64,000 nt of DNA, taken from contig NZ_BSTC01000001.1 in NCBI RefSeq assembly GCF_030269305.1, forward strand, positions 261,467-325,466, read 5' to 3'. The position numbers and the translations under genes are program-made. Of the stretch, positions 1 through 18,261 are shown one piece after another. Under the pieces are notes generated by a model. That model saw nothing but the letters and a program-made list of their open reading frames with translations, ran no database searches and was not told the origin of the DNA. The number at the start of each line of letters is the position of its first letter. Within the stretch, counting starts at the first letter, position 1. Origin of the DNA: Kineosporia sp. NBRC 101731. Its GTDB lineage: Bacteria > Actinomycetota > Actinomycetes > Actinomycetales > Kineosporiaceae.

Positions 1-144
1 GTGCGTCCGTGCGTCCGTGCGTCCGTGCGTCCGTGCGTCCGTGCGTCCGTGCGTCCGTGCGTCCGTGCGTCCGTGCGTCCGTGCGTCCGTGCGTCCGTGC
101 GTCCGTGCGTCCGTGCGTCCGTGCGTCCGTGCGTCCGTGCGTCC
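1..144. repeat. 8-bp tandem repeat array, 18 exact units
   Basis: The window opens with 18 uninterrupted, identical copies of the octamer GTGCGTCC. The next eight bases (GTGTCGCC) are a degenerate unit, after which the array stops. It begins at base 1, so it probably extends beyond the window or marks a contig edge. The unit is not a multiple of three, and the open frames through it are repeat artefacts (repeated CVRASVRP-type peptides). Function is unknown; replication slippage is the usual origin of such perfect arrays. Confidence 0.97.
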
Positions 145-593
145 GTGTCGCCGTGGGACTTAGCCGGCCCTGCCTTGATGGCCATAAGCCTACGGATGAT
201 CGTTTCGCCACTCGCCGTCGCCCGATGCCAACTTGTCAGACCCATGGCTACCTACTTGCACCACCACGAGCACCAGCCCTAGCGAGGAAAGTGGCGTGTC
301 AGATAGTGACGGGCGGCGCGACCTACGGCGGTCAACCGCCAGTTCGCCACCGAGCCTTGATGCTTAGGTGGACCCCTGACGCTTGGCTGTCCTCTCAGAC
401 CACGTGTCCAGCTGCCGATCGTCTAGGCCTGCCATGACAACGACGCCCAACGTCTCTCCGCCGTAGGTCGATCCCTCTGCACCACCTGAGGTGCCCTCGA
501 CCTCGCATGCAGCCTCTGCTTGCATGAGCACACCTCGCAGAGCCCCCCGATGAATGCACGGGTCAGAACACTCGGCAGACTCCTCGTCTCGTC

Positions 594-607
594 GATTCAC
601 GTGAAAC
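594..607. other. parS: parS site 1 (GATTCACGTGAAAC)
   Basis: This 14-mer has one mismatch to the bacterial parS core GTTTCACGTGAAAC, with the central CACGTG intact. ParB encoded at 17155-18261 is the expected ligand. It is the leftmost of nine such sites in 14.4 kb. Confidence 0.8.
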
Positions 608-1138
608 ATGCTGACAGCCGATCGAGAGCAGTCGCTGCGGTCGAGCCACCTATTGAAATGGGACAGGGGCTTGTCGCATAGGGGAGGGCTTCTCGTATGT
701 CATCTGGCATGGAGGACATCACGAAGTGCCAGACAGAGGCGGAGCCCTATGGGGTGCAGCCAGGCGAGTCTGGACATGGCGCAACGGGCGATTCTGGCGG
801 AGCCGCAGTCAGTGAGCAATCCGTCGACGGCGGCGAACTGGCGGCTGCGGCGGACGATGACTTGGCTCAGCTGGCAGCTGTGGTCCCAGGCGTGGCGAAG
901 AGCTGCTGATGTAGTGAGGACCTTGTCGAGTCAGGTCGACTCGCCACGCGTTCTAGCATTGCTCAGCGGTGAGGGTCGCTGCGGCAAGCCGTCCAGTCGT
1001 GATGTGGCTGGAATGCGTCCGCCGGTGTGGTTGCCCACCGGGCCGGCCATCTGTCGAGTGGCCATCTGGCGGTTGTGAGGTCGTTGAGCACCTTCGGGCT
1101 CGTGTTGACTGCTGCATAGCAGTGGGTGCTACCAGGCC

Positions 1139-1231
1139 TAGCGCGGTGGCCACCAACGTTCGCGGGGTCAGCCCGACCAAGATCCGGTGCTTCCGCCGAG
1201 GGTGAAGCCGGTCAAGGTTCGTGGCCGCTTA
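1139..1231. mobile_element. MITE-like element, short copy, IS630-related ends
   Basis: The left end reads TAGCGCGGTGGCCACCAACG and the right end is the inverted match GTTCGTGGCCGCTTA. Both are bounded by TA, as expected for IS630/Tc1-type insertion. The left end is nearly the same as those of the copies at 4832 and 10790. At about 93 bp this copy lacks the central segment of the longer ones. It contains no gene and is probably non-autonomous. Confidence 0.6.
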
Positions 1232-2469
1232 GCCGTCCGTGGCCACAGCAACCAGCGCGGCAGCTCACGAGCGCAGATCGTGCTGCAGTTGCGTGCGGGC
1301 TCACGAACGCGGGGAGTGCCTGGAGGCCGGGGTGAGCGTGGATTTGCAGCGCTGCTGGAGGAGACGCGGTTCACGCAGACCCAGCCGGTGGGAATGACTG
1401 CTGCTCTGGATGATCGGTCCGTCCTGACAGCCCGTTGGTGCTAGCACTCGATCGTGCGGGCGTGGGTCATGTGGTGACCCACGCATCCTGCTGGCGCAGA
1501 TCGTTGGCCCGTTGGCACTGCGGTGCCATCGTCGGGCACGTCCTGGCTAGCGTTGGAATGAGGGTCATCCTGAAGCATCTGGCGCCGGCTGAACGGGATG
1601 CCCCATGCCCCATGCCTCAGGCACCTGGTCCCTGGTAGCGCCAGTCCTGGGTCTCGGTCCATGACCCGGACCTCGCCGAACGGCTGGTCCTAGACCTGCC
1701 ATTGACCTTCGCAGGGGATGGTGCGTTGCGCCCTTCACATAGGCAGGCGTTGTCGTCGCGTGCTGCTAGAGGCGCAGTGCTCAATAGCTATTGCAGTGGC
1801 CACAAATGATGGCTGGCCGCCGCTAGTTCGTGACCATGCAAACCCTCCCAAGGACGTGCAGACACATCCCGGCCGAAAATTTGGGATTGCCTGATCACGA
1901 ACGTCAAAGGTGGCCGACATATGTAGTTGCCGCCACTCGCCCGTTGGGTGGTGCCTAGCTCGATGCTGGGACTGGGACAGCGGAACATCGCTCTCCGACC
2001 GATGTTCAACGGTCAGACTCTCCCCGTCCAAGCGGGCTATCCATCACCGTTCGCGATGGTGACGCAGAAATGGCGAGATCCACACCGGGCCGGCAGCCCG
2101 TGCACAGCACCTCTGAGCCACTTCATTCGGGAGAGCTAAGAGCGGGCGCAACCTATGGTCACGGGCGGAATGGTGAGGACAGGTACGGAAGATGACAGCC
2201 ATGGACGCGCATGATGCGGACTGAGAGCAGCGTTCCCTCGGTTCTCGTGGCGACTGGCCAGCGAGGGCGTTGACGTCAGCGAGGTGTTACTTCCCAATGA
2301 ATCAGGGCCCAATGGCTACGCGTCCCGAACTAGCGCAACATCATCTGATGGAACTTTGAGGAGATGAGGCGTTCAAGAGCTGGCAGCAGATCTGCACCTC
2401 GTTCGTCTCATGTCCACTGCAGGAGTCGGCAGTTGGGGCCGCTGCTCGCGATTGTCAGCCGCTGTAGGT

Positions 2470-2502
2470 CGCCCCAGGGGACTTCCCGTGTGCCCTGGGG
2501 CG
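2470..2502. repeat. Inverted repeat, 10-bp stem
   Basis: Arms CGCCCCAGGG and CCCTGGGGCG are perfect complements around a 13-base loop. No adjacent gene needs a terminator and no T-run follows. It sits directly beside a 7-bp tandem repeat. Confidence 0.6.
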
Positions 2503-2537
2503 GCCTGCGACCTGCGACCTGCGGCCTGCGGCCTGCT
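2503..2537. repeat. 7-bp tandem repeat, five units
   Basis: Five consecutive units of RCCTGCG (G/A at the first base), the last one ending one base short of a match. No coding role is seen. Confidence 0.8.
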
Positions 2538-2602
2538 TGGCTGACGGGCCGATCGGGCGGCTCGGTTCCTATCTGGTTGGCACAAGAGGTTCACCGCAGA
2601 AC

Positions 2603-2616
2603 GTTTCACGTGAATC
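2603..2616. other. parS: parS site 2 (GTTTCACGTGAATC)
   Basis: One mismatch to GTTTCACGTGAAAC, in the right arm; the central CACGTG is intact. Confidence 0.8.
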
Positions 2617-3272
2617 AAGCTAGCCACGTTAGTTGGACACGCGTGGGGGAGCCAAGACCGGTTGGGTCAGCCAGCCCGACTCAGCTGATCTGACCGGTCC
2701 GTGGCACTGTCCAGACTTCGCCTCGAGCAAATCCCTACCTCCGGGCGGTGGTTGTACGCGCGTGCTCGGCACGAGGCTGGCCTGCGCGGAACTATGACGC
2801 CGGCGCCCCTGCGGAGGGTTCGGTGATGCCAACAGCCTTCCGTGAGAGGTTCTGTACAGGGCAACGCGCCAGTCTTGGGTGGTGGCATTGTCCGGTGAAG
2901 AGGGGTCACCCTGCGCACGGCACCCCCGTGACCGTAGGTCTGTGGCACCGTCGCGGCAATGACTCATGGACGTCGCTCCATCGATCGTCCGAGCCTGTCC
3001 AGAACGGCCCGGACGCCTCCTCGGGTGGGGAATTCCATCAGCATGAGTGTCCGGCGCCTGATGCATTACGTCCTGCCGTAACGCTTCACCCCGCTGTCTG
3101 GATCCCGGGATACTTCCTCCGCGGCGAAGTCGCGCCATAGATGCTGATCGCCGAGTGGTCCGACGGTGCCGAGGCGAACCGCGATGGCGAGATGGGGCAG
3201 GACGCAGAACCGAGGCTTGCGTAGATCGTGACCGTCGGCTGGGCGTCCACTTGCCTGTACGCGAGCTGAGGC

Positions 3273-3286
3273 GTTTCACGTGAAAC
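3273..3286. other. parS: parS site 3 (perfect)
   Basis: Exact match to the 14-bp parS core GTTTCACGTGAAAC, a full palindrome. It is the only perfect copy in the window and so probably the strongest ParB-loading site here. Confidence 0.92.
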
Positions 3287-3808
3287 CTCGACTCGCCCGG
3301 AGAGATCTTGGGCGGCTCCTACTGCCTGAACACGGTGCGGTTGCCGTGCAAGGCCAGTGCCTAAGCGTGACTGCTGGCCGAGAGCGGAGGATACGTCAGC
3401 CGACAGGCGGGGCTCGCCCGGTCCAATTCGGAGAGCTTCAGTTCACGGCGTGCGTCAAGGCTTAGCCTCCTACGCAAACAAAGCTGGGCCTGGAGCCGAG
3501 TGCCGGTGATGACAGTGACGGTGGGGGCCTTCAAGGCAGCCCGAACGGCTTCGACTGAACCGGGCTCGGCTCGGTCGTCGTGCCGGAGTCGTCAGCAGCT
3601 GGCGGGCTTGTTGGTCTTCGCAGAGGGGATCACAGCTTGGGGGCCATGTTACTGAGACCCAGTTCGCAGCAGAGATCCTTCTGTGTGGCCGGCCAAGCCT
3701 CCTAATGCCCCGCCTTGCGATGCAGGCGCCTTGCGATGGCTAGATGCCGAATGCATTGGATCCACCGTGGGGGTTGTCCGCAAGACCCACCTCGCTCAAT
3801 CAAACTTG

Positions 3809-3842
3809 CTGCAAGGCTCCTCGTCGGCGAGGAGCCTTGCAG
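3809..3842. repeat. Perfect hairpin, 15-bp stem and 4-base loop
   Basis: The left arm CTGCAAGGCTCCTCG and right arm CGAGGAGCCTTGCAG are perfect complements around loop TCGG. The shape is that of an intrinsic terminator or a single-strand recognition hairpin, but there is no flanking gene and no T-run. It could be a relic terminator or a structural element of the gene-poor region. Confidence 0.8.
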
Positions 3843-4315
3843 CGTCACCATGACCAACTGCGCCCTGGCAGATCTTGCCAACGATCACGCCGATCGGGAC
3901 CTAGGCCAAGCACATTCGGGACCACACCCACGCCCGTACTCAGCCACCGCGACTTCGCCCTGCGCACCTCGCGAGCTCACAAGCTGGGTACTGCTTCGAT
4001 GAACTATCGGAAGCCTCGCAACAGACGATCGCTGATCATCAGCAACTGCGCATCCACCGATTGGTATCCGAGCCGCACCAATCCTGTCGTCGTCGAATCT
4101 TTCCCGGACGCGCTCATCGCTACCGGCCACGAGCTCTTCGTCGACGGAGCCAGCTATCGACCTGGAAGCGATCCAGCCATACCTAGCCTGGAGGCTCGAC
4201 ACTCGAACCCGCCAACCAGATTGCACCAAGACCACAGGACACCAGGGAATGACGTGATCGAGACCGGACGCTGATCATTCTGTCCTCCCTTTCGTGTGGC
4301 GGCCGCTGAAAGTGG

Positions 4316-4612
4316 TTGTCCACAGACTCATCCCCACTGTGGACGAGCGTTGGTTGGGGAATGGCCTCTCGAAGGGAAGAGTTCGGCCGCTGATCTACGG
4401 ACCCCAAAGCCCTGTGGAAAACTCGCTCCAGTTCCCCCGTCCGGCGATGCGCCGATGTTCTTCCAAGGAGCAGGCCTCGTGTGTAGCTGTTTGCTGGGCG
4501 AGGACTTCGGGGAACAGATTGACGGACCATCTCCGCCCTGTGGATAGCGCTGTGCAGTTTTGTGGTCACAGTCGTTTGACCTGCGGTTTGGCATCACCAT
4601 GGCTGTGGAGAA
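4316..4612. other. Cluster of DnaA-box-like nonamers
   Basis: One exact TTGTCCACA lies at 4316-4324. Four one-mismatch variants, on the opposite strand, lie at 4338-4346, 4413-4421, 4539-4547 and 4604-4612 (reverse complements TCGTCCACA, TTTTCCACA, CTATCCACA, TTCTCCACA). Five boxes in 300 bp resembles part of an actinobacterial oriC. However, dnaA and dnaN, which normally flank oriC, are not in the window and no clear AT-rich unwinding element is seen. It may be a relic or accessory DnaA-binding region. Confidence 0.5.
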
Positions 4613-4831
4613 ACCTGGGGACAACCGATCAAGTGTTGATGTCCTGGAAGCATTAATCAGGGCCTCATTGGTCGACTCTGCGTCGGTTGAGACCAAGAGC
4701 GATGAGTCTTCTGATTCCCCTTCGCCGCACGCGTTCACCACGCGGAATCAAGGCTAAGAGCCCTGCTCGCCGACTGGCGGTGCCCAGCAATGGGGGAAGG
4801 TTTTCACAACAGGGACTGCCTCAGGGCGACC

Positions 4832-4952
4832 TAGTGCGGTGACCACAGACGTTCTCCGCCACTCCTTCAGCCGTGATCATTCAGACCTTCCCCGGGGAGA
4901 GTCTGCATGATCATGAACGGGGAGGCGGCTGACCTTTGTGGTCACCGCACTA
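4832..4952. mobile_element. MITE-like element with TA-bounded terminal inverted repeats
   Basis: The left end TAGTGCGGTGACCAC and right end GTGGTCACCGCACTA are a perfect 15-bp inverted pair that includes the TA dinucleotides. The element is about 121 bp. Its interior (the CAGCCGTGATCAT block and ATGATCATGAACGGGG) recurs in the copies at 8813 and 10790. The ends resemble those of the IS630-type element at 6311-7616 (TAGTGCGTTGGCCAC). It has no open reading frame, so it is probably a non-autonomous derivative mobilised by an IS630-family transposase. Confidence 0.8.
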
Positions 4953-5438
4953 GATGTTTGGCCTTGGAAGCTTTCCCACAGGGCGTGGATGGACCTGTGG
5001 ATTCTTGCTTCAGAAGCGCTACGAGCCTTCGGACCACCTGAAGCTGAACGGTGTCCCGCGTCGCGACATCGCTAAATCCAAACCGCTCCGCTCAACGGTG
5101 TGGTTGAAGAACCGTTCCAGGTCAACAGCGCATCCGGGTCAGACCCGATCCGGTTGCATCAGAGGGCTGCCAATCGCTACTCGGGAGCGGAGGTTGGCGG
5201 TCGCGACAGCTGATGCGAGGCTTGGTGCGTCCACGATCGGGTAGGTCCGCGTAAGGATCTGCTAGCAGATCAACGCCGGCAGGGCATCCGCCAGGCATAG
5301 TCCCTTGTTTGAGTACCTGCCGCCTATGTGATGTACGAGTCCCATTCCCGCAGGCGGACCAATGTCCGTGCCTGCATTTCAAATGCTGGCACTAGAGCGA
5401 ATCCTCGATCTGCGTATGCGAGGCGCTACTGATGCGCC

Positions 5439-5452
5439 GTTCCACGTGAAAC
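5439..5452. other. parS: parS site 4 (GTTCCACGTGAAAC)
   Basis: One mismatch to the parS core, in the left arm; the central CACGTG is intact. Confidence 0.8.
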
Positions 5453-6254
5453 ACATACCAGGGCTCTCACCCTCAGGAGGACGTAGTGGCGCTCGCACCG
5501 ATTCCCAGGAGCGAGAGGACCTGAACAAGTGACGGGGGACGGCCGAGTCAATCGCCTTCTTGACGGGTGATTAGGTGTGGATCACCTGTCAAGAACGGCC
5601 CGCGCAACTTCGGTCGGGAGCATCGGTCCCAATTGACCAGCAGCCAACCGCCTGACGTATCGGTCGCGGTGAACCCGTGGGCAGCCACAAGGATCTGCCA
5701 TTGCCTCTAGCAAGGACTCCCAGCGCCGCCTTGCTATCTGGCTCACGCCGTACGTGCTGACGTGCAGCAGGCGGGGATGCCGAAGCGAGCAGAGAGTCGC
5801 ACTTGGGTGATGAGGACTGGGTGGCGAGCAGATCCATCCAGTCTCCGTAGACAGTTGGTTCGCGCGTGCTGCCGAGAAGGTTCAGTTCTTCGCAGAGCCG
5901 GCCGCGTCGAGCACCCGGAGATATGAAGGAGAGGATCTTGCTGTGGACGGCCAGCGCCTGGCGGATGTATTCACCAGTGGGTCGCGATCACCCTCGGCTT
6001 CGCTCGTTCGCACCCGAACCTGTTGACGTAGTCATGGGGGTCCCGGATCCCCGGACTCCCGGTGCTGGGCTACTGCCAGGATCAGCTTCGCGAGACGCTC
6101 AAGGCCCGTCGATCTGAGGTACATGCCGTTGTGCAGCGCATGGCGACGGCCGGATATGTGTCGACGCCGGCGTAAAAGTGCTCGGGCTCATTGAATGTGC
6201 CAGGCTCCCTACTCAGACACCAAGTTGTCGAGGGTTGCTGTTTGCTAGCGCCCC

Positions 6255-6294
6255 TATCGCTCGCTCCGTTTCACGTGGAACGGAGCGAGCGATA
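6255..6294. other. parS: parS site 5 inside a 40-bp palindrome
   Basis: The core 6268-6281 reads GTTTCACGTGGAAC, one mismatch to parS. The palindrome extends well past the core: arm TATCGCTCGCTCCGTT on the left is matched by AACGGAGCGAGCGATA on the right. The whole 40 bp is self-complementary except for one base pair. No other parS site in the window has such extended arms. It lies 17 bp from the IS630-type element. Confidence 0.85.
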
Positions 6295-6310
6295 CGACTA
6301 GTCCTGCATC

Positions 6311-7616
6311 TAGTGCGTTGGCCACGAACGTTGCGGGTCAGGTTTCCGCGGGAATGATCGTGGTTCTTGGCCGACCCCAGCGGTGACCTTTCTCGGCGCG
6401 GATGCGGGCTCGTTCGCGGCGTTGGGTGGCCAGGATGTCGGGGTGGCGGGCATTGGCGTTGCGCCAGCGCAGGTGGGCTTGCAGGTCGCGGGTCAGGACG
6501 GTGTGGTTGGGGTAGTTCGAGGCGGCCATGGTGAATATCCGCGAGGGCCTGAACTGGGCTTCGATGGGGTTGGCCCAGGACGCGTAGGTCGGGGTCAGGC
6601 AGAGCTCGATGTTGTGCGCCGCGCACCATTTCCTCACCGCGGGTGTCTTGTTCGCGGAGAGGTTGTCCAGGATGACGTAGATCGGTGCGCCGTCCGGGCG
6701 GGCCGCGCGGATGCTTTTCATCGCGGCCAGGGTGTTCTGCCCGCCTTTGTGGCGGCGGTTGATGCCCCAGAGCTGGTCGTCGCCGAGGCTGTAACAGCCG
6801 TGGAGGTAGCGGATTGCGTGGCTGCGGGGGTAGGTCGCCGGGAGTTGGTCGGGGTGTTTGGCGCGGTTCCAGGTTGAGCCTTGGTGCGGGCGGATCGGCA
6901 GGGGTCCGAACTGGTCGAACGCGAAACACCGGTCCGGGAACCGGTTGGTGACTTCCTCGATCCGGTTCACTTTCGCTTAGAAGTCGGGGTCGGGGGTGAC
7001 TCTTTCCAGGTCCTAGTCCGCTGGAACGTGATGTCATGTGTGGCGAGGATCTGCCGCAGCCGTTCCCGCCCGACGGTGATCAGCCGGGCCGGTTTCATGT
7101 CCGGGTCGACCTTGGAGAATGAGCCTTTCACATAGCCGGAGAGTTTACGGATGTTCCACTGGATGAAGGGAAGCCCCAGTTTTTCGGTCTGGTGGTGGCC
7201 GTCGTGACGATGGCTTTCACGTCGTCGTCACTGATTAGGCGGGGACGGCCTCCCGCCCACCGAGGGTCCAGGCATGCCAACCCTCGATCGTTGAAGTCGT
7301 GGATCAGTTTCCCAACGGTGTCCTCGTCCGCTGCGACCAGCCGGGCGATCGCCGGGATCGGGGTCCCGGACGCCGATGCCGTGATCATCATGGCCCGCCG
7401 GACCCGGATCGATCCGTGTTTGCCTCGCCGCATGATCTGCTGCAGCCGGCGTCCTTCATCCTCGCTCAGCCGCCGGGCCCGCACTCGTTCCGCCATCGCC
7501 GCCCCTCTCACACCTGCACGAACTGTGAGGGATCAGCGTGATGGTCTGACGGCCATCACGCCCGGACCGGGTCCCGGCGTGTCACAAACCGGGCAACGTA
7601 TATGGCCAACGCACTA
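6311..7616 (-). mobile_element. IS630-family-like insertion sequence (about 1.3 kb)
   Basis: The ends are inverted repeats: TAGTGCGTTGGCCAC on the left and TGGCCAACGCACTA on the right, followed inward by a second matching block ACGTTGC. TA dinucleotides at 6311-6312 and 7615-7616 fit the TA target duplication of the IS630/Tc1/mariner superfamily. The interior carries one minus-strand transposase, now broken. The first 15 bases of the left end closely resemble the ends of the short elements at 1139, 4832 and 10790, so this is a plausible parent of that family. Confidence 0.85.
6338..7511 (-). pseudogene. IS630-family transposase, inactivated
   Basis: The gene is read on the minus strand from about 7511. 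The first part (7511-7128) encodes a helix-turn-helix N-terminus (SRR-like start, then a WAGGRPRLI linker). The second part (6970-6338) encodes the DDE catalytic domain, with CFAFDQFGPL, VILDNLSANKT and the glutamate in SWANPIEAQF giving the D, D, E residues. Three lesions separate them. A one-base deletion near 7177 (PEKLG now read as PKNWG) shifts the frame. An extra C lies in a run near 6990. A TAA at 6979-6977 stands where the family usually has Glu (DFEAKVNRIEEV). Removing these restores one continuous IS630 protein, so this is a decayed transposase. Confidence 0.85.
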
Positions 7617-8812
7617 GGTGGAACGACCTCAAGCACTGAGCAGTGCTCTGGGCAGTCATCGGCCTCCGAGCTATCAAGAGTGGCGTCAGCCGGCGAAGAC
7701 CAGGGGAGTCCGTACTCGATAACTGCCGCGAGATCGTCGACCGAGCTCTGTCGATTTGAGGGAGAGAGTCTCGACTTAGGGACGTGCGGGCGACGGCGGG
7801 GGCGCCATGATGGACGCGCATCCCAGGGTTTAGGGCTGTGGGTTGGAAGACCGCGCACAGCAGAAGGGTGGCGCGGGAATGCTCCCTCACTGTGCCACCG
7901 ACCTTGGAATGCCAGTCATTACTTGATTGCCACGAGAAATCCGACGAGCCATTGCGTCTGACACGGAACCGCATGACTGGTCAGATTGTCATCACAGTGC
8001 TCGGACCGGCTGCACACGCAACGACTGGCTGATGGTGGCTGGCGATGCTCGTTGGACGTGGCAATCGGTTGTGGCTGATCTGTCACACCCAGCGAAATGA
8101 CAGCCAGATTCCCCGCTTCGTCATGCGGTGGCTCGTCACGCTTGGACGCCGCCATCGACCTTTGTCACGACGGATGAGCTTGTGAATCTTCGCTGAGGCA
8201 GGTCACGAAGATGTGCCTTTCATAGGGGAGAAGTGGACTGAGCTCGATGTCACTGTGCATACAGATGGATATGGCAGGGGACTCCAACTGAATGGCGACC
8301 CTTGGCCAGCCGCCTTCGTCAGGTCAACCCGTGCAGCGCTTCGGCTGCTCATCGGCGGTACATGGCAGATGGCTTCCGAAGCAGCAAGCCACAGCAGTGG
8401 AACTGTTCGGCAGGTGAAATTGGCAGGGCAATTGCGATCAGGTGAATGACGCGCCAGTGTCCGCTGAGCCGATCTGGCATCTGTGGCTAACTCCTGAGCT
8501 TGGCTCAACGGCGAATGCTGGTCTCCAACGGAGGTCGTGCTGTGCAGCGCTTCGCCTCCAGCGGCTGTTGCGGATCGGGATGGGTGAATGAGCAAGGCAG
8601 CCTTGGGAGTTGCTATTCCGCATCCCTTGGGCGGAGGCCTGTTTCTAGATCAGGCAGGGTCCTCCACAGGGTGTGGGCTGAGCTGTGGATCGCTGTCGAT
8701 CGTTCTGGGCGCATAGAGCAGAGCAGCGCCGGGTGTCCCTGATGGAGAATGGGAGATGCGTGAAGCCCAAGGTTCGCCGCTGTCGACACGTCGGGTGGGT
8801 GGTTGCTCATGA

Positions 8813-8934
8813 CCTGGTTCGGTGGCCGCAAACGTTCGCCGGCACTCTCTCAGCCGTGATCGTGTGAACCTTCCCCAGGGACGGTTCCCATGATCACGAA
8901 CGGGGAAGTGGCCAAACTCCGTGGGCACCGCCTC
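8813..8934. mobile_element. MITE-like element, diverged copy
   Basis: This 122-bp copy aligns with the element at 4832-4952 over its whole length. It has a left end GGTTCGGTGGCCGCAAACG, the internal TCAGCCGTGATC block, ACCTTCCCC, ATGATCACGAACGGGG and a right end CCGTGGGCACCGCCTCA. The terminal TA and several end positions have mutated. The inverted repeats are imperfect, so it is an old copy. Confidence 0.7.
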
Positions 8935-9047
8935 AGCACTGATTCTCGCGATCAGTACTCAACCATCCTGATTCTGTTCGGGTCCTCGCACCGGCAAGAG
9001 CGCAGGCGCGTGGCTGTGACCGACTGAGGTCGATAGCCCTCGTCTTG

Positions 9048-9061
9048 GTTTCACGTGGAAC
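9048..9061. other. parS: parS site 6 (GTTTCACGTGGAAC)
   Basis: One mismatch to the parS core, in the right arm; identical to the cores at 6268 and 14229. Confidence 0.82.
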
Positions 9062-9171
9062 GTTGCCAAGGCACTCCACATCGGTACTGGGTTCGTCATG
9101 CGCGGTGAGCGCGGGTGACCTCCATCCAGGGGGAGATCTGGCAGGATCCTTCGGCGCATTCTTGGGATCGC

Positions 9172-9180
9172 TGTGGATAA
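9172..9180 (-). other. Perfect DnaA box (TTATCCACA)
   Basis: TGTGGATAA on the plus strand is an exact reverse complement of the DnaA consensus TTATCCACA. It is isolated: the nearest similar motif is a one-mismatch box at 9462-9470. Confidence 0.6.
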
Positions 9181-9333
9181 GACTTCAGGTGGATCCGCCA
9201 GGCCAAGGGCGGTGCCCTGTTCCGCGGCCCCACCGCTGGGAACTCCTGGCATAGACCATCGAGGATGGTTCTGGCTGGCCGACACTGAGATCCCGTGCGA
9301 TGGGACTTCCCTGATGCTGTGAGTTCAGCACCG

Positions 9334-9377
9334 CGGGTACGGGATGTGTTGAGGTCGGGTACGGGATGTGTTGAGGT
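9334..9377. repeat. 22-bp tandem duplication
   Basis: Two adjacent identical 22-bp units, each starting CGGGTACGGGATG and ending TTGAGGT. They lie in gene-poor DNA and show no coding or regulatory sign. Confidence 0.9.
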
Positions 9378-10405
9378 ACTGACTGCCTAGGCGCTGCTCA
9401 TCTTGGCGTTGCGAATGAAGGCCCGAGATGCGCAGCCTGGCTTCGCGGGATCGGGAATGGTTGTGGACAGACCAGCGACTCGATTTCCAGCAGGCCTTCT
9501 AGGTATTTGGCCGAAGTGGTGGGTCATCGGTGGGCTGATGATCCTGAGCTGGAGTGCGCTCACGTCATCGCGACACATCTGTTCGCCATAGTTCCCTCAG
9601 CGGCCCTTGCTCGGGTGACAGTGCTTCTGCGGGGTGGCCACTCGTTGTGTCGCGATGAACCACGAGGCCTTCGATCTGTGACAGCTACTTAGTTCGTCTT
9701 CGATCGAGCTGGAGCTCGAAGCCATCTTGGATTACGGAGTCCATTGAACGACATCGTGATCTTGGATCTGCTGCTGGACCTTGAGCAGAGGAGAAGAGCT
9801 GAAGTTGTCTGGCGCATCTGAACGATGCTGGATTCGGTCATGGAGTGGATCTGTCACGCGAACGACTCCACCTCTTCGGAGCCAGCATTGTGCGCTACCG
9901 CCTTCCTTCCGCGTGAGAGTCGGGTCGGTTGGTAAGCCTCAATTTCCGTTGCAGGTCTCAACCAGGGCTAGAAGATTCGGGCTTTTCCGCCGGCGAGATT
10001 TGGGCAGCTCCAGGGAAAAACTGCTGAGTTCTAGCATTGCGGCACGGCTGCAACGGGATGATGCCTGCGGCATTGACCGCAACGGCTTCGTCATGGGTGC
10101 CTGCTGGGCCACGGTGGTGTTGGAGTCCATGCCCCACACCAAAAGCGCGCGGGGCCACGTTCTACGGCACCATTCGGAATCTGTCCGCTACCACAATTGC
10201 GCTCGGTCATGGGTCGCCTTCAGCTGGTGTACGAGGCGTTTGCCATCGAGGTCGAATTTGCTGATCCGGGTCAGCTCCTGCATCGTTGGGCGCCGTACTC
10301 GCGATGATGAGGGTTGTTGCGGATGAGCGTGCCCGCAGCAGAGCTGCCAAGCGCGGCTCAGACCCCTCATCGTGGGTGGGGCCGGCCGCATCCCAGGCCA
10401 CGAAT

Positions 10406-10419
10406 GTTTCACGGGAAAC
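10406..10419. other. parS: parS-like site 7 (GTTTCACGGGAAAC)
   Basis: Both arms match the parS core exactly, but the central CACGTG is CACGGG. A change in the centre may weaken ParB binding, so this may be a decayed site. Confidence 0.65.
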
Positions 10420-10619
10420 GCCGCGTCCTGCGTGGATCAACGGCCCATGGGGGAGTGGGTCCTGATGAACATCGAGCCGCTGAGAACTGGATCAGATCCG
10501 TGAAGGCTGGGCCACGCAGCCACCCGATATCAACGGGCTTGCTCTGAAGAAGTGATCCAAAAGGTCTGGCACCTTGCGGGCAGAGGCGATGCGATGTTTC
10601 TGGGAACGGAGGGGTGATC

Positions 10620-10645
10620 GGCGATTGTTCGTGGTCACTGCACTA
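10620..10645. repeat. Isolated right-end fragment of the MITE family
   Basis: The sequence ending GTTCGTGGTCACTGCACTAG matches the right terminal repeat of the 4832 and 10790 elements. No convincing left end is seen upstream, so this is a truncated or heavily decayed copy, 145 bp before a fuller one. Confidence 0.5.
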
Positions 10646-10789
10646 GACCGAATCACTGCATCTGTCGGATGCGGCAATACCAGCGCTGTCAGCCCCGACG
10701 CCGCAGAGTCGTCACCCGCGCGGATAGTGCCACGCACCCGAAGGGTCCTTGGCCGGCCAATATCAGACAGCTTCGGCTCGAAAATGACC

Positions 10790-10941
10790 TAGTGCGGTGG
10801 CCACCAACGTTCGCCTGCACTGCTTCGTTCGCGATGAGGCAATCCCCAGTCTTCGGCCTGCAGATGCCCCTACTTCCTCCCCGGGGATGGCTTGCATGAT
10901 CATGAACGGGAAGGTGGCCAACCTTCGTGGTGACCGCACTG
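10790..10941. mobile_element. MITE-like element, long copy
   Basis: The left end TAGTGCGGTGGCCACCAACG is paired with the right end CGTGGTGACCGCACTG, where the terminal TA has become TG. At about 152 bp it carries an extra segment relative to the 4832 copy but shares its right-hand interior (CCCCGGGGATGG, GCATGATCATGAACGGG). It has no open reading frame of its own. Confidence 0.75.
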
Positions 10942-12648
10942 AGTCTGGGGCAACCGCCGGCAGACCCAAGGTTGACTGGACCGGTATTGCTTCTGGCCGC
11001 TGGCATCTTGGGTTCTGTCACCTTGCCGTGGCTACGGCAGATGTGCTCGTTCTGATGACACAGACGCCCAGAGCTGGTGAGCGAAGAGCTCCTCGCGATG
11101 TGCCTTCGGCTGAGTCACAACCAGATCTGACCTGCTGTGGCTGATCGAAGTCTTCGGGAAGATGTTGATCATTGGTCGCATCGATATTTGCTCTAACCGA
11201 GGGCCGTCAAGCCTGACTGGCTGAACCACTGACTGTTGCGTGTCGGACCGGAGTAAGCGTGTTGACAAGCTGTCTTGCCTTGCGGATGTCCAGCTCAATG
11301 ACAGCACTCTGAGCATTGCCAGCATCATGAAAGCGTCTTGGCCGTCCCGTCCTTCTCACGTGCCAGAGGGTCTCGGTTGGTGGCGAGACATTCAGAGGCC
11401 CAAACTTTCCTGACCGATGTGACCTCGCTGGGCCCGCCTAGAAATGCGGCGAAGAGATCTGACAGGCGATGTGGCGACATCACTGCCACTCAATGGCCCG
11501 CCTCGGAAGTGACTAGTCGTGTGGAATGGCGGCCGATCCGAGCCAGGCAGGTACCGAGCTATAAGAGAAGTTCTCATGCATCTGGGTGGCGATCCCGTGG
11601 CCAGAAAGTTGACTGGTGGCGAACCGTGGTTTGGGCGGAGGCACCAGCAAGCACTCCCTAGCGCGATCCTGACGCGAGCACGAATTGGCCAGGCCTGGAA
11701 TCGGATCATGACGGCTGACGGCAGTTAGCGGATAAGGAAGTTGCCCGAACATGGCTGAGCCAGCTGTCGTTCACCCAGCCGATGGTCATCTCAGGAGTGG
11801 CCTGACGATCGCAGCCGATGAGCCACATCGAATTCTGTCTGCCGGCATCTGGCTCATCCGTTGCAGCACGCTACTCAGGAGGTGACGAAGCCCAGAGGGA
11901 TGAGTCGGTGGCTGCTGGATTGGAAGGATGCCAATAGCCATCTGTTCACGTGAGCGAGCCGACCGCCATTGGCTGGACCAAGCGGCGCAGCTCAGCTGGC
12001 CGGCGCTATCCATGCATGGCGAAGCGATGGACGTCCCTAGTCCGGGCGCACGATGAGACATCTCATGGCCAAGATCCAGCTCAGAAGCCATAACGGTCGT
12101 AGGGCCGGGTAATTGGCTGGCTTGGCTTCGCGATTGACTACTACGACGAAATGGCGCCGACGCGGCCCCAGCCGTCCGAGCACCGGGCCAGACCGGTGCT
12201 CATGACGAGCAGCGAATCCCCAAGCATGTCCCCTGTTGATGCGCGCACAAGATGAGCCGCAACTGCCTGTTCGACCTTGGACAGGCGCCCGTCCGAAAAC
12301 AGATCATGCCGATAAGGCTCCTCGATCGCCTCACCACCCGTGAGTCAAGGCCACGGACGCGGTCTTCAACGGCTGTCTCTTCTTGGGTGGCTTGCCATGA
12401 CGAGTCTGTCGCTTCCGCCATCGACTCCGGTCGTGTGGCGATCGCGATCCGCTTCTGAAAGGGCTGGAAGCTTCGGCGGCTCACGGTCAGCATCCACTGA
12501 TGTGAACGACCCGCGTCAGCAAGACCCCAGATCCTGTCAGAGGCGTGACCGTACGGAAGGTCCTCGAGCGGTATGGCCAAGTGGGATCAGCCAGAACGAG
12601 GTGGCTCACGTCAGGGGAGTGCTGGGACTAACGAATGGCACGGCGCCG

Positions 12649-12708
12649 CTCAGTTGGCGAGCACCTCGGGATTCACACCGTTGCGGTCCGGTGTGTCGCC
12701 CAACTGAG
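12649..12708. repeat. Nested inverted repeats, possible structured element
   Basis: The outer arms CTCAGTTGGCGA (12649-12660) and TCGCCCAACTGAG (12696-12708) pair with one bulge. Inside them CACACCG (12674-12680) pairs with CGGTGTG (12689-12695). Stacked stems of this kind could form a cruciform or a folded RNA. No promoter or adjacent gene was recognised. Confidence 0.6.
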
Positions 12709-13365
12709 CTGATCTTCCGAAGGGTGCCCCGGCGGTTGATAACAGCGGTCGATCTGGCAGTGGGCTCATACAAGAAAGATCGATGACGGGGTGATGACCG
12801 CCGGCGCTCTGTGGAGGCACCACATCCGAGGTTCCCTCCTCGTGAGCCGTCCCGTGAGTTCAATAGGCCTTGGCTTGAGGGGGGTGGGCCAGGGTCTGCC
12901 GCGGAACCTGTCTGCGTCTCAACCGCCCGAGTCTGACTGTCTCAGTCTGAGTGACGCTTCACCTCTGCGCCCGATTCAGCCGGCGACGTTCGTGCTGAGA
13001 GGCAACCAGCCTGCGTCAGGCACTCCCATAGAACGAGCCAGGGGTAGCCGGCGATGTTCAGACCTGGACGGATGGGCCGCCACAGCGAACCGTAGAGCAG
13101 CGGAGGTTCTGCATGAGAGGGACGCTGGTCGGCCGCAAGCTGTCCGACGATCTCGGTGGTTGTTCGCTCAGTCCGCGGCAATACAGCTGGTTGTGACGCG
13201 GTTCGACGTGGATCGGTTCATGGAAGCAGGCCATGCACATCACCCGGCCATGGGAGCAGGTCAAGGAGCCGGCCCGGGTTAGCAGTCGGCCGATTCGAGA
13301 TATTTGATTCACATGATTGAGACGCTGGCGTTGATCAGGATGTGACGCTGGAAGACGGATAGTGG

Positions 13366-13491
13366 TCCCGGAGTCCCGGAGTCCCGGAGTCCCGGAGTCC
13401 CGGAGTCCCGGAGTCCCGGAGTCCCGGAGTCCCGGAGTCCCGGAGTCCCGGAGTCCCGGAGTCCCGGAGTCCCGGAGTCCCGGAGTCCCGG
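13366..13491. repeat. 8-bp tandem repeat array, 15.75 units
   Basis: TCCCGGAG is repeated perfectly for 126 bp. Downstream, isolated units recur (for example near 13526-13537). It is the second octamer array in the gene-poor region, with a different unit from that at 1-144 but the same period and similar size. Frames through it give repeated SPGVPESR-type peptides and are not genes. Confidence 0.97.
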
Positions 13492-14228
13492 GCGCGCGGA
13501 GTCCGGGGGGTATGAAGCCCTGGGATTCCGGAGTCCCGAAACTCGGCCGTTCAGTAGTCGAGGAGCCCAGGGGAATCGAAAGACCCGGGCCCAGGAACCG
13601 GGCAGAGTAGCTGGCTTGAGACCAGCGAGGGATGGCAGCAAGACCTGATAGTGATTGATGCTGTGGCCCCGGATAGAGATTCCGGTTACGAGGGGCAGAA
13701 CTGGATGCACCAGCTGGGACGTGGATCGCCATTTTCGAAGCGATCCTCAGATGGATTCAGGCGATCTCTTCGAGTCAACTCGGGCGAGGCGTGAATCATC
13801 AGCCGGTCACGCCGGCCGGCCAATCGCTCACGGTCGGCTGACCGCTGGATGGTGATCTGTCGGACGGGAAAGGTTCACAGGATCACGAACACGGAGGTAG
13901 CTGGTGGGGGAGGCGCTCATCGCGGATGAGGTGGCCTCGCAGCTCATGGCCTCCTGCGTCTGAGTCCTGCCTAGCGCAAGGTTGTCCAGTAGCGCTGACT
14001 CCTTCCGCGGGTCGCCAGCGATCTACTGATCACTGATCGCGTGGCAAGGAGCAGCCTCAATCGATAAGGGCACTAGGGCCGCGAGCGTGAGCAGTCAGTT
14101 GCCGCAAGACGGGCCGCCTCAGGATGTCTGGCCAGCCGCTGTCACCGGTGTCTGAAATGGCGTGCGGTCGGCGTAGACACAGCGTTGTGCGAGCCACTCC
14201 GAAGTTGCTGTATGCGCTACATCTCGTC

Positions 14229-14242
14229 GTTTCACGTGGAAC
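14229..14242. other. parS: parS site 8 (GTTTCACGTGGAAC)
   Basis: One mismatch to the parS core, in the right arm; identical to the cores at 6268 and 9048. It lies 0.6 kb upstream of parA. Confidence 0.82.
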
Positions 14243-14687
14243 AACAGGGCCCATGTAGCCGCCCTTCTCCGTCCCGTTCTTGCTCCGGGTCGCCCCTGGA
14301 GCGGGCGTCCACGAACCTTGACCGGGCCCCACCTTGTCCTTCGCCAACCGGCGGTGACCAGCCTTCGGCCGAGAGGCGTCCTCAGATCTCCGAGGATGAG
14401 GTGAAGGCCTTTCGGGAAGTAGAGGCAGTGCCTGGCCGGAGGCGGGGGGTGCAGGATCAGCAACGAGGGGACGTCGGTCGCAGCCGACGAGGGTTCGTGT
14501 CCACCGCACTAGCGCGATCCTCGCAACAGGCGAATGACTGCGCCGTCACGGTCGCCACCTGATTAGTGACTCGCAGTACACCTGGCCTCACATCATGGGT
14601 AGTGTGATGTCGACATGGTTGACTGAAGTCATCGCGATGAAAGAGCGCCGTGGGGGCGGTTCGGCGCACATCGCTCACCACTGACCT

Positions 14688-14826
14688 GTGGACAATGTGG
14701 GGATCTTCAGGTGTGGATGACTGCGGTGGATAGCGCGGAAGGCCTCCTCACCTGCTCTGATTGACCAGGCTCCGCGAGTGTCCACAAGGCAGAAAGTTTT
14801 CCACAGTCGGGAAAACCTGTGGATGA
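14688..14826. promoter_or_regulatory. DnaA-box-like cluster directly upstream of parA
   Basis: Five nonamers fall in 139 bp: TGTGGACAA at 14688-14696 (exact reverse complement of TTGTCCACA), TGTGGATGA at 14712-14720, GTGTCCACA at 14778-14786, TTTTCCACA at 14797-14805 and TGTGGATGA at 14818-14826. All but the first have one mismatch. The last two flank a GTTTTCC/GGAAAAC inverted repeat. The cluster ends 46 bp before the parA start and could couple parA expression to DnaA. Alternatively it could be a displaced piece of an origin. Confidence 0.55.
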
Positions 14827-14872
14827 GCGCACCGAGAGTGGGTCGAACGCGAGATGATGGCGGAGCTGGACA

Positions 14873-16873
14873 ATGGAAGGGACGTTGGTGAGCGAATTGG
14901 GCTGGCCCTCGGCAGCACTTAAGCGAATGGCCAATGGTCTCGGTTGGCCCAAGAGCGACCGCACGTTGGTTTCCCGTGAAACATCGCCCCGTAAACCCGA
15001 ATCCCACCCTGAGCCCGCCGCCAAGCGCGCCAACGTCTTCGCTCGTGCGGCCGAAGCAGAAGCGAAATTCGCAGTAGAGGATTCTCCGGCTTCGGGGAAG
15101 CCGGCCACCGGTCTCAGGACCGGACGGCACGCAGCGCCGGCCCAGGTGGTGCAGTCTCCGATAGCACCCCCACCCCCGTCCGTGCCCCAGTCTTCGGCAG
15201 GGTCCCAGTCTTCGCCAGGGGCTCCGCTTAAGGCGACGCCTCCAACACTGCCGACGGCTCCCTCCGGTGAGGTGGTGCGGGATGAAGATGGACTGGTCCA
15301 GTCGGTCCCGCCCCCGCCCACCGCGCCGGAGATGACGTCCAAGACCTTGAATGACCAGGGCCCCAGCTTGGCTCGGCGCCCTGATGCCGTAGTAGACCTG
15401 CGCGATTCGGTGGTCGACCTGCGCGACGACGATTTGCCACCTGCTCCGGTAGACCGCTTCACCACCGGGGGAGGAGTGTTCGCCGCGGAGAGATACGATC
15501 GTGGCGGTACACCCTTGAGAGTTCCGGGCCGGCCGATCGCTACGCCTGACATTGAAGAGATCGTCGCGACGTACGCGAGCCGGGCGGCTCTTAGTGAGAG
15601 TGGCACTTTGATCGACGTGGACCGGGCCGAGCGACATGGAAGCGCTCCGGCCAATGATCACCAGTACGTCGGCGCCGACAACGGTGCCAGCCGGACCGGG
15701 GCACGAGCCCTGAGTTCCCCCACATCATCTGCAGAGGTTCGGATGTCATCGAGCAACGAGCCCAGCAATGCGGACACTGAGGCCGGATACTCGGTTTCTG
15801 TCACCCGTCCCTGGCTGGGAGTGGAGCTGGGCGCGGAACCGACTCCGGGATTCCGGCAGCCGGTTCAGCGTCCCGCAGAAGCCCGGGAGGCAGGCGCGAC
15901 GACCGCACCGGCGGCGACAGGAAGTCAGCCGCTGGTCGAATCGATCTCGCTGATCGACGACACTCCGCTTGCGCTGGAGGTCGCTGAAGACACGCGCCGC
16001 CGCATCGCGCTGGCCGGGCGTCGTTTCCCCCGCCCGAAGGAGACGCGGGTACTGACCGTGTCGAACCAGAAGGGCGGCGTCGGTAAGACAACGACGACGG
16101 TCAACCTGGCAGCTGCTCTCGCCCAGGCCGGCCTGCGGGTGCTGGTGCTCGACAACGACCCCCAGGGCAACGCGTCCACCGCTCTGGGCATCGACCACCA
16201 CGCCGAGGTGCCGAGCATCTACGACGTGCTGGTCGAAGGGATGCCGCTGAAAGACGTCGTGCAGAAATGCCCAGACGTCGAGAACCTCTGGTGTGCGCCG
16301 GCCACGATCGACTTGGCCGGTGCCGAGATCGAACTGGTCTCGTTGGTGGCGCGTGAGTCGCGGCTGCAGCGGGCAGTGGCCACCTACCTCGAGGAGCAGG
16401 AGGCCGGCCCTGGGCGTCTCGACTACATCCTCATCGACTGCCCGCCGAGCCTCGGACTGCTGACGGTCAACGCGTTCGTCGCGGCGCAGGAGGTGCTGAT
16501 CCCGATTCAGTGCGAGTACTACGCGCTGGAGGGTCTGTCTCAGCTGCTGCGTAACGTGGACCTGATCAAGGGGCACCTCAACCCCAGGCTTCACGTCTCC
16601 ACGATTCTCCTGACCATGTACGACGGGCGTACCCGCCTGTCGTCGCAGGTTGCCGACGAGGTTCGGGCACACTTCACCACCGAGGTGCTGAAGACGACGG
16701 TTCCGCGGTCGGTCCGGATCTCCGAGGCTCCGAGTCACGGGCAGACGGTCATGACCTACGACCCGGCCTCGAGCGGTGCGCTCTCCTACCTGGAGGCCGC
16801 ACGTGAGCTGGCCGAGCAGGTCCTTGACGACAATGAGCGCGAGCAGCGACAGGCCCACGCAAACCGCACGTGA
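14873..16873 (+). CDS. parA: ParA chromosome-partitioning ATPase with long N-terminal extension
   Basis: ParA is the Walker-type ATPase that moves or anchors ParB-parS complexes. The conserved domain starts near residue 390. It has the deviant Walker A KGGVGKTT at 400-407, DNDPQG at 427-432 and DCPPS from D522, and closely follows actinobacterial ParA thereafter. The first 390 or so residues are Pro/Ser/Ala-rich and predicted disordered, with a repeated VDLRD motif. They include VSRET (33-37), a motif that Streptomyces ParA also carries and that is encoded by a parS-like site. Actinobacterial ParA is usually 300-350 residues; this is 666. ATG 14873 has GGAG seven bases upstream; GTG 14888 is an alternative. 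parB follows after 281 bp. Confidence 0.93.
   Translation: MEGTLVSELGWPSAALKRMANGLGWPKSDRTLVSRETSPRKPESHPEPAAKRANVFARAAEAEAKFAVEDSPASGKPATGLRTGRHAAPAQVVQSPIAPPPPSVPQSSAGSQSSPGAPLKATPPTLPTAPSGEVVRDEDGLVQSVPPPPTAPEMTSKTLNDQGPSLARRPDAVVDLRDSVVDLRDDDLPPAPVDRFTTGGGVFAAERYDRGGTPLRVPGRPIATPDIEEIVATYASRAALSESGTLIDVDRAERHGSAPANDHQYVGADNGASRTGARALSSPTSSAEVRMSSSNEPSNADTEAGYSVSVTRPWLGVELGAEPTPGFRQPVQRPAEAREAGATTAPAATGSQPLVESISLIDDTPLALEVAEDTRRRIALAGRRFPRPKETRVLTVSNQKGGVGKTTTTVNLAAALAQAGLRVLVLDNDPQGNASTALGIDHHAEVPSIYDVLVEGMPLKDVVQKCPDVENLWCAPATIDLAGAEIELVSLVARESRLQRAVATYLEEQEAGPGRLDYILIDCPPSLGLLTVNAFVAAQEVLIPIQCEYYALEGLSQLLRNVDLIKGHLNPRLHVSTILLTMYDGRTRLSSQVADEVRAHFTTEVLKTTVPRSVRISEAPSHGQTVMTYDPASSGALSYLEAARELAEQVLDDNEREQRQAHANRT
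14969..14982. other. parS: parS site 9 (GTTTCCCGTGAAAC), inside parA
   Basis: One mismatch to the parS core, in the centre (CCCGTG). It is read in frame as Val-Ser-Arg-Glu-Thr in the N-terminus of ParA, a placement also known in other actinobacteria. It is the rightmost parS-like site I find in the window. Confidence 0.75.
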
Positions 16874-17154: not shown

Positions 17155-18261
17155 GTGAGCGACAAGCGTAGAGGCTTGGGGCGAGGCCTCGGAGCGCTGA
17201 TCCCGCCGCCTCCGGCCGCCCGCCCTGCTGGCGACAGCCCGGTAGACAGCGCTTTCTTCAGTGAGCGTCAGGACGGCGAAAGTCCGGCCGACGCGACGAA
17301 GGCCAAGGAGCCGGCGGCGAAGGTCACGCCGGAGACGACAGACACCAAGGTCGAGCCGGAGGCCACGCCGGCCAAGCCCGAAGAGCCGAAGGGCCCCGAA
17401 CTGGTCCAGGTGCCGGGCGCCTACTTCACCGAACTTCCGGTCGGCACCATCGGGCCGAACCCCCGCCAGCCGCGGACGGAGTTCGACCAAGAGGCGATGG
17501 CCGAGCTGGTGCACTCGATCAAAGAGATCGGTGTTCTTCAGCCCATCGTCGTGCGAGCGGTGCCCGGCATCGACGCCGATGGCAAAGAGATCTCCTACCA
17601 GCTCATCATGGGCGAGCGTCGGTGGCGAGCGAGCAAGGAGGCCGGGCTCGAGACGGTCCCGGCGATCGTCCGCGACACCAACGATGATGACCTGCTGCGC
17701 GATGCCCTGCTCGAGAACCTGCACCGCAGTGAACTGAACCCTCTGGAAGAGGCCGCGGCCTACCAGCAGTTGCTCGACGACTTCGGTTGTACGCACGAGG
17801 TTCTGGCCACGCGGATCGGCCGGTCCCGGCCGCAGATCAGCAACACGATCCGGCTCCTTCGTCTGCCGTCCAAGGTGCAGAAGCGGGTTGCGGCCGGAGT
17901 GCTCTCGGCCGGTCACGCCCGTGCGCTGCTCGGTCTCGAAGACTCCGAGGCCATGGACAAGCTCGCGACGCGCATTGTTGAAGAGGGACTCTCCGTCCGG
18001 TCGACGGAAGAGGTCGTCAAGCTCACCGATCCGAGCGAGACCAAGTCCAAGCCGCGCAACAAGCCGAAGGCAGGCGGCCGCAACGTCGAGCTCGACGACC
18101 TGGCGAGCCGCCTAGCCGACCTGCTCGACACCCGCGTCAACATTGCTCTCGGCCAGTCCAAGGGCAAGCTGAGTGTCGAGTTCGCCAGCGTCGAAGATCT
18201 CAACCGGATCCTCGACATCCTCACCCCGGAGTTGCGTAAGGCATTCCAGAACGGGGAGTAG
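17155..18261 (+). CDS. parB: ParB centromere-binding CTPase
   Basis: ParB loads at parS as a CTP-dependent sliding clamp and works with ParA. After a basic RRGLGRGLGALIP start and a low-complexity linker, the N-terminal CTPase domain contains GERRWRAS (153-160) and ENLHRSELNPLEEA (from 187). A helix-turn-helix region (TRIGRSRPQISNTIRLL) reads parS, and the C-terminal dimerisation segment ends at 368. The length is normal for actinobacteria. GTG 17155 follows a GAGGAG ribosome site. The gene lies downstream of parA in the same direction and ends just before a strong terminator. Its targets are presumably the nine upstream sites. Confidence 0.97.
   Translation: MSDKRRGLGRGLGALIPPPPAARPAGDSPVDSAFFSERQDGESPADATKAKEPAAKVTPETTDTKVEPEATPAKPEEPKGPELVQVPGAYFTELPVGTIGPNPRQPRTEFDQEAMAELVHSIKEIGVLQPIVVRAVPGIDADGKEISYQLIMGERRWRASKEAGLETVPAIVRDTNDDDLLRDALLENLHRSELNPLEEAAAYQQLLDDFGCTHEVLATRIGRSRPQISNTIRLLRLPSKVQKRVAAGVLSAGHARALLGLEDSEAMDKLATRIVEEGLSVRSTEEVVKLTDPSETKSKPRNKPKAGGRNVELDDLASRLADLLDTRVNIALGQSKGKLSVEFASVEDLNRILDILTPELRKAFQNGE

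Follow-up and report, generated by a model that had tools for sequence, protein, structure and literature searches.

The usual picture of a bacterial centromere is a handful of short sites set among ordinary genes. ParB clamps are reported to load at these parS sites and to slide, and bound proteins stop them in vitro (PMC9242446). The parS cluster of Myxococcus xanthus (PMC3778016) is a close known system, and in the sections of that source available to us we found no report of fast spacer turnover or of DnaA-box clusters. In Corynebacterium glutamicum, ten clustered sites of an actinobacterial ParABS system are described on the oriC side, nine of them intergenic (PMC7083940). For Streptomyces, which are hyphal actinomycetes, an origin island is reported in which parS sites are many (mean of 22.8 per chromosome) and biased to the right of oriC (PMC8743542). 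Neither a gene-free parS domain nor a Kineosporia centromere is named in the titles or abstract beginnings among the literature matches listed. Here we describe a locus of the soil bacterium Kineosporia sp. NBRC 101731 that resembles the last two systems in these respects, an array of ten parS-like sites between rsmG and parA. The window, which is the whole 64-kb stretch of DNA analysed, covers positions 261467-325466 of contig 1 (C1) of this genome (G000; 8.26 Mb in 88 contigs). This is an ordinary ParABS system with an extraordinary centromere, and we consider it probable that the region is the chromosomal centromere, grown to a domain of about 18 kb with almost no genes and coupled to DnaA.

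The window holds nine parS-like 14-mers, one perfect and eight with one mismatch, each at the place where a reading made from the sequence alone (the sequence-only reading) had put it; a tenth array site lies just left of the window (Table 1). That reading had also claimed that the sites far exceed chance, are absent from the right-hand 49 kb and lie next to parAB, and in all of this it was right. The mean in 100 dinucleotide shuffles was 0.09, with at most 2 matches per shuffle, no further site with up to two mismatches was found in the 64-kb window, and the array occupies the rsmG-parA interval, directly upstream of parA-parB. Across the whole genome we detected 12 sites with up to one mismatch (0 for a reversed control pattern) and 14 with up to two (2 for the control). 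A chance origin of the cluster is rejected by the shuffles and by these scans against the control. Ten of the 12 sites fall at C1:261113-276448, spaced 0.7-3.8 kb apart. The rest of the genome does not match this density, and the outcome that would have refuted the sequence-only reading, sites just as dense elsewhere, was therefore not seen. They lie 9.6-25 kb from the DnaA-box-rich gap beside dnaA.

The proteins encoded next to the array are standard ParABS proteins. ParB combines ParB_N and HTH_ParB domains with the motif GERRWR, which we take to be of the CTPase type, and its relatives include solved ParB and Spo0J structures. ParA, an ATPase with AAA_31 and CbiA matches in Pfam, is encoded adjacent to parB on the same strand. 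Several near-GTTTCACGTGAAAC sites close to the presumed oriC, and their conservation across species, complete the picture of a ParABS locus.

"Kineosporia" is used here for the genus to which GTDB assigns the window, with six genomes: G000, K. rhizophila (G001), K. mesophila (G002), G003, G004 and K. babensis (G005). Each array has 8-11 sites, and 57 of the 67 sites of the six genomes fall in the array, if we count five of the eight array sites of K. babensis, which are on a separate 6.9-kb gene-free contig that we infer to be the middle of its array. Sequence information is limited to the 14-mer, as the flanks carry at most 0.26 bit over 15 positions (59 array sites, the 57 plus two with two mismatches). 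In the trimmed arrays, matches with zero to four mismatches number 6, 42, 2, 0 and 10, against shuffle means of 0, 0, 0.1, 1.6 and 17; sites are either intact or absent, with no half-decayed class. The order of site variants is also kept. The summed longest common subsequence is 89, against 63.9 +/- 3.3 in permutations (0 of 20000 reached it, with an orientation assumed for the middle contig of K. babensis), and 8 of the 15 genome pairs are individually below p 0.05. All six genomes have a GTTTCCCGTGAAAC-type site close to the parA end of their array, with one more site after it in G003 and G005.

The two remaining one-mismatch sites of G000, at C1 336339 and 462606, are within called genes about 60 and 186 kb to the right of the array. 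In relatives, outlying sites were found 54-62 kb from parB in K. mesophila, G003 and G004, and about 180 kb from it in K. mesophila and G004. The two outlying sites of G000 could be genuine ParB sites. The palindrome around the array site at 6268 has arms of 20 bases that are 95% complementary; as a general feature of the arrays it was rejected, with extended pairing at 0 of 58 other array sites.

The DNA between the sites has been replaced almost completely. We compared the locus with that of K. mesophila, the closest relative, whose ParB is 92% identical. Genes of the two species align at about 90%; rsmG, parA and parB agree at 82-84% of their fourfold sites, and ordinary intergenic DNA is 89.5% identical (66 anchored gaps; 23 others were left out for want of anchors or because of length change). 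Only 15 of 236 ordinary intergenic windows are below 70% identity (median 0.93). In the array, 117 of 129 windows are below this value and the median is 0.48, against 0.43 for an alignment of shuffled DNA. What is conserved in this otherwise near-random spacer is the 14-mers and the order in which they stand, together with the edges and DnaA-box-like clusters. The sequence-only reading had proposed to check whether relatives conserve the sites but not the spacer, and the outcome, with sites conserved and the spacer hardly so, was as it predicted.

The length of the interval is also unusual. The rsmG-parA stretch is about 18 kb in G000, and the distance from rsmG to parB (aligned ends) is 20.1 kb in G000, 17.5 kb in K. 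mesophila, 19.3 kb in G004, 18.3 kb in K. rhizophila and 12.5 kb in G003; K. babensis, with the two genes on different contigs, is not included. The five arrays themselves span 11-19 kb, and the sixth, in three contig pieces, at least about 15 kb. In other genera of the family, rsmG and parB are 4.2-7.0 kb apart (five measurable genomes; G010 and G011 are split), and in the class sample the median is 1232 bases and the maximum 4511 (106 other genomes that could be measured, in a sample of 118). The maximum rsmG-parA distance among named ParB loci is 5232 (72 of 80 measured; the other eight include K. mesophila, K. rhizophila and K. babensis, in which rsmG is outside the fetched piece). An assembly artefact is unlikely, as the array is continuous in five Kineosporia genomes, in one of them in a single contig; that of K. 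babensis is broken over contigs ending in tandem repeats.

Genes were called with a codon model trained on 194 long frames of G000, and between rsmG and parA it called only the marginal frame 6338-6970. In 505 kb no uncalled gap is larger than the two halves of this interval (9269 and 8850 bases; the next has 5858), and all that separates them is an open frame that overlies a transposon relic. This frame, 6213-7037, is probably spurious as a gene, since it lies on the relic and a comparison with the other arrays gave no homologue (best E 0.26). Scans for promoters and terminators gave shuffle levels. The sequence-only reading had held that the spacer seems to have no other job; it is indeed nearly gene-free, but the same DNA contains an IS630-type relic and DnaA-box-like clusters, both of which that reading missed.

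The relic is a decayed element, and we call it IS630-type by its domains, HTH_29 at about 7227-7397 and DDE_3 at about 6551-6736, both above Pfam cut-offs. Elsewhere in the genome it has two short partial matches and no second full copy, and the K. babensis array holds a piece related to it. Its ends are formed by CTAGTGCG, which also occurs as short inverted pairs in the array and elsewhere in the genome, and as single ends near 1137, 10628, 10788 and 14494. As a centromere-specific satellite CTAGTGCG was rejected. With up to one mismatch, 8 of its 21 matches are in the array and 13 outside it, and with up to two mismatches on both strands the genome has 57, fewer than the reversed control (90). 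Private short tandem repeats occur in five of the six Kineosporia arrays: apart from the two of G000 (Table 1), these are (CCGTG)19 and (GTCCGGGT)22 in K. mesophila, (CCGTGCCG)78 in G004, (GGTGCGGA)16 in G003, and in K. babensis units of 6-7 bases repeated 8-9 times, of which two stand at contig ends. The array of K. rhizophila has only a 13-base unit in about 6 copies. In the 505 kb of G000 no other unit of 12 bases or less with ten copies was found (overlapping rows merged).

Such content suggests the main rival explanation, in which the centromere is ordinary and its spacer is tolerated junk of transposons and slippage repeats; the needs of ParB would keep the parS sites, and length would have no function. 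The relic and its short derivatives fit this account, as do the GC content of the arrays (61-65%, where the remainder of the window mostly has 65-74% per kb), the perfect tandem arrays of 5-9-base units in noncoding DNA, and some short intergenic gaps elsewhere that are also down to 0.62-0.70 identity. However, junk DNA is expected to shrink in bacteria, and the species have kept the array lengths given above despite almost total replacement of the sequence. The sites also remain spread in order over the full length, and the DnaA-box-like clusters are kept. We regard this explanation as unlikely, though it is the most serious one.

An unbiased word count placed parS as the strongest shared motif of the arrays and TATCCACA second. 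TTRTCCACA-type words are presumably DnaA boxes; we counted words with up to one mismatch to TTRTCCACA as DnaA-box-like, and at least three words in 150 bases as a cluster. The six Kineosporia arrays have 22, 16, 21, 15, 10 and 23 words (the last in K. babensis, over three pieces), and every array or piece exceeds the maximum of 100 shuffles, whose means are about 2-5. Each array has 2-4 clusters, against essentially 0 in shuffles. The five sister-genus gaps have 0, 2, 0, 0 and 1 words and no cluster. Per kb, we counted 1.17 words in the array; genes had 0.12, the remaining intergenic DNA 0.37, and the long dnaA-side gap 5.49. All six Kineosporia genomes have a group of 3-5 words immediately to the left of the GTTTCCCGTGAAAC site at the parA end. 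Three scattered words were also found left of the window, at C1:258809-259031.

As judged by consensus words, these are conserved clustered boxes outside oriC. E. coli datA and the DnaA-box clusters of Bacillus are loci of DnaA control, and the region might likewise serve primarily to titrate DnaA near oriC, with parS sites interspersed. The excess of words and clusters and their density relative to other DNA favor this, and the five cluster-free sister-genus gaps are shorter. Yet parS, not the DnaA word, leads the unbiased count, the sister genera retain parS in a gap without clusters, and the clusters span a few hundred bases rather than 18 kb. We consider a primary role in DnaA control improbable.

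The hypervariability could also be only apparent, if one of the two close species had received the whole block from a distant Kineosporia lineage, swapped in by homologous recombination in the flanking genes. This would leave conserved flanks around an unconserved block, as is seen, and a swapped block would retain the site order. At neither edge, though, does identity break off sharply: it declines unevenly across about 1 kb, where 100-base windows align almost without gaps at 0.59-0.69. This speaks against a simple block swap. Neither the G000 nor the K. mesophila array resembles the other four beyond short pieces. Moreover, divergence is also accelerated in a pair from another genus, G009 (the Kineosporia sp. 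A_224 record, placed in another genus than the window) and G012, in which flanking genes are 88-99% identical (250-base windows), the spacer 0.49-0.89, and all seven gap sites are kept in order. A block swap seems quite improbable to us. In the rsmG-parA gaps of this pair (L106 in G009, L107 in G012), the first three sites are GTTTCACGGGAAAC, the central one is GTTTCACGTGGAAC and the last three are GTTTCCCGTGAAAC, and the one-base asymmetry of the sites points opposite ways in the two halves.

Finally, missed fast-evolving genes or structured RNAs are very improbable: the gene model does miss some real genes in relatives, and there is a codon-phase signal at 6.0-7.0 kb, since accounted for by the transposase relic, but no Rfam family or tRNA was found, Pfam scans of single ORFs and of all six frames of window positions 1-14900 returned within the array only the relic and a low-complexity Cornifin match below cut-off on a tandem array, and the best-scoring open frame between rsmG and parA in any of the six arrays reaches no more than 16.4.

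Table 1. Coordinates of the array, its sites and neighboring features (window positions unless a C1 position is given)
Feature	Position	Strand	Remarks
parS-like site GTTTCACGTGAATC	C1:261113, 354 bases left of window		genome scan; tenth array site
parS-like site GATTCACGTGAAAC	594..607		pattern scan
parS-like site GTTTCACGTGAATC	2603..2616		pattern scan
perfect parS GTTTCACGTGAAAC	3273..3286		pattern scan
parS-like site GTTCCACGTGAAAC	5439..5452		pattern scan
parS-like site GTTTCACGTGGAAC	6268..6281		within 40-base palindrome 6255-6294
parS-like site GTTTCACGTGGAAC	9048..9061		pattern scan
parS-like site GTTTCACGGGAAAC	10406..10419		pattern scan
parS-like site GTTTCACGTGGAAC	14229..14242		left partner of right-end module
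parS-like site GTTTCCCGTGAAAC	14969..14982		pattern scan
array-bearing nearly gene-free spacer	1..15400, starting left of window after rsmG		hypervariable between species
DnaA-box-like cluster, middle A	4316..4421		3 words
DnaA-box-like cluster, middle B	4539..4624	-	about 90-base element alignable in G002 (K. mesophila), G004 and G005; weaker match in G001
DnaA-box-like cluster, right	14687..14826		between last two parS sites
short MITE-like element	4830..4953		CTAGTGCG terminal repeats in inverted orientation, as in the IS630-type element
decayed IS630-type element	6307..7620	-	terminal repeats 6307-6334 / 7593-7620; transposase remnants in different frames
perfect tandem array (GTGCGTCC) x18	1..147		repeat scan
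perfect tandem array (GTCCCGGA) x16	13365..13491		repeat scan; carries low-complexity Pfam match below cut-off
rsmG end	-2932		left of window
parA	15821..16873	+	start uncertain; conserved sequence begins about 15375-15407 in relatives; Walker motif KGGVGKT
parB	17155..18261	+	ParB_N, HTH_ParB and ParB_C domains; motif GERRWR

DnaA, YidD, YidC, Jag and RsmG are encoded to the left of the array. The DnaA-box-rich gap downstream of dnaA is 3.1 kb long and is presumed to be oriC. About 30 kb to the left of this gap, at about 202000-221000 of contig 1 of G000, is an island of nearly 20 kb to which K. mesophila has no alignable counterpart at this position; it includes uncalled stretches of 5.9 and 3.4 kb.

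In the enlarged centromere that we propose, ParB would load at the ten parS sites, close as a clamp and slide outward. Clamps from neighboring sites could merge into one continuous ParB-coated stretch, because no working genes were found in the DNA between the sites; this stretch would be moved by ParA, and condensin could load there. Selection would act on the 14-base sites and on their order, and would probably also keep the spacer long and empty while leaving its sequence almost free. The spacer sequence would be quickly replaced through point changes, growth of tandem repeats, rearrangement and small transposons. That 11-19 kb persisted while the sequence was replaced points to selection for length. 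DnaA bound at the two to four clusters would tie the domain to replication timing, as with DnaA at the Caulobacter centromere.

Several observations weigh against this interpretation. Nine of the 21 further intergenic gaps on this contig with a length of at least 600 bp align by less than 20% to K. mesophila (four of the nine sit in one unaligned island), so long gaps often differ between species. The genus offers only one close species pair, and the second pair, G009 and G012 of another genus, diverges less. A general rule of hypervariable parS spacers was rejected: two pairs were usable among 55 named loci, of which one diverged (0.69; the G009/G012 pair again, so not independent), while a Cellulomonas pair has a spacer identity of 0.86 and no excess divergence. 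For half-parS motifs there is no clear enrichment, since the count of 23 is within the shuffle range (mean 16.3, maximum 25). At the left end a TTATCCACA word is present in all six Kineosporia genomes, but a cluster by our rule stands there in four, and in G003 the word scan found no middle cluster. The codon model gives rsmG a score of only 22 in G000 and leaves it uncalled in several relatives, including K. mesophila and G003, and for this reason "gene-free" rests also on the Pfam scan (G000) and on non-conservation. Bacillus ParB is reported to bypass roadblocks, with ChIP profiles that show no strong changes near genes (PMC9242446), so gene-free DNA may be unnecessary, and one parS is described as enough for normal growth in C. 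glutamicum (PMC7083940).

The sequence-only reading had named the region a candidate regional centromere, and as an analogy backed by anatomy and conservation this is probably right. By that analogy the domain is long and gene-poor, and its bulk sequence is unconserved while position and rough length (11-19 kb) are kept. The analogy fails in one respect, as function does not rest on the domain instead of short motifs; the 14-mers are strictly kept. A true bacterial counterpart, in which more than 11 kb would be kept for length and emptiness with free sequence, held by 14-base ParB sites and DnaA clusters, is a possibility that we put forward tentatively. Frozen sites within a spacer that turns over much faster than silent codon positions offer a test of whether ParB clamps need unobstructed DNA. 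Two further questions can be put to the array: is DNA in bacteria ever selected for its length alone, and is rapid evolution of centromere DNA found beyond eukaryotes? The presence of DnaA-box-like clusters suggests a single locus that couples the start of replication to segregation. In hyphae with many chromosomes, fast turnover could reflect competition for segregation or spore packing, like centromere drive.

Compared with known systems, the arrangement is distinct. The C. glutamicum sites are described in separate intergenic regions over 35 kb, 73 kb from oriC, with one in coding sequence (PMC7083940), whereas the ten of G000 all occupy a single stretch, nearly gene-free, immediately upstream of parA. 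The Streptomyces island, unlike this array, is reported to have a mean spacing of 5.6 kb, an extent of about 50 kb and conserved synteny (PMC8743542). Initiator sites inside a centromere have precedent, because DnaA is reported to bind the Caulobacter centromere and to enable partitioning, and the rctA/parS2 centromere locus of Vibrio cholerae chromosome II to bind its initiator (PMC6399470). In those two systems binding is reported, whereas in Kineosporia it is predicted, from 2-4 DnaA-box-like clusters in an array of 11-19 kb. Regional centromeres of eukaryotes are large, gene-poor and fast-evolving, with species-private tandem repeats. By analogy, the Kineosporia array is like them in all of these features, but it is marked by conserved 14-base sites of a ParB system and not by a centromeric histone.

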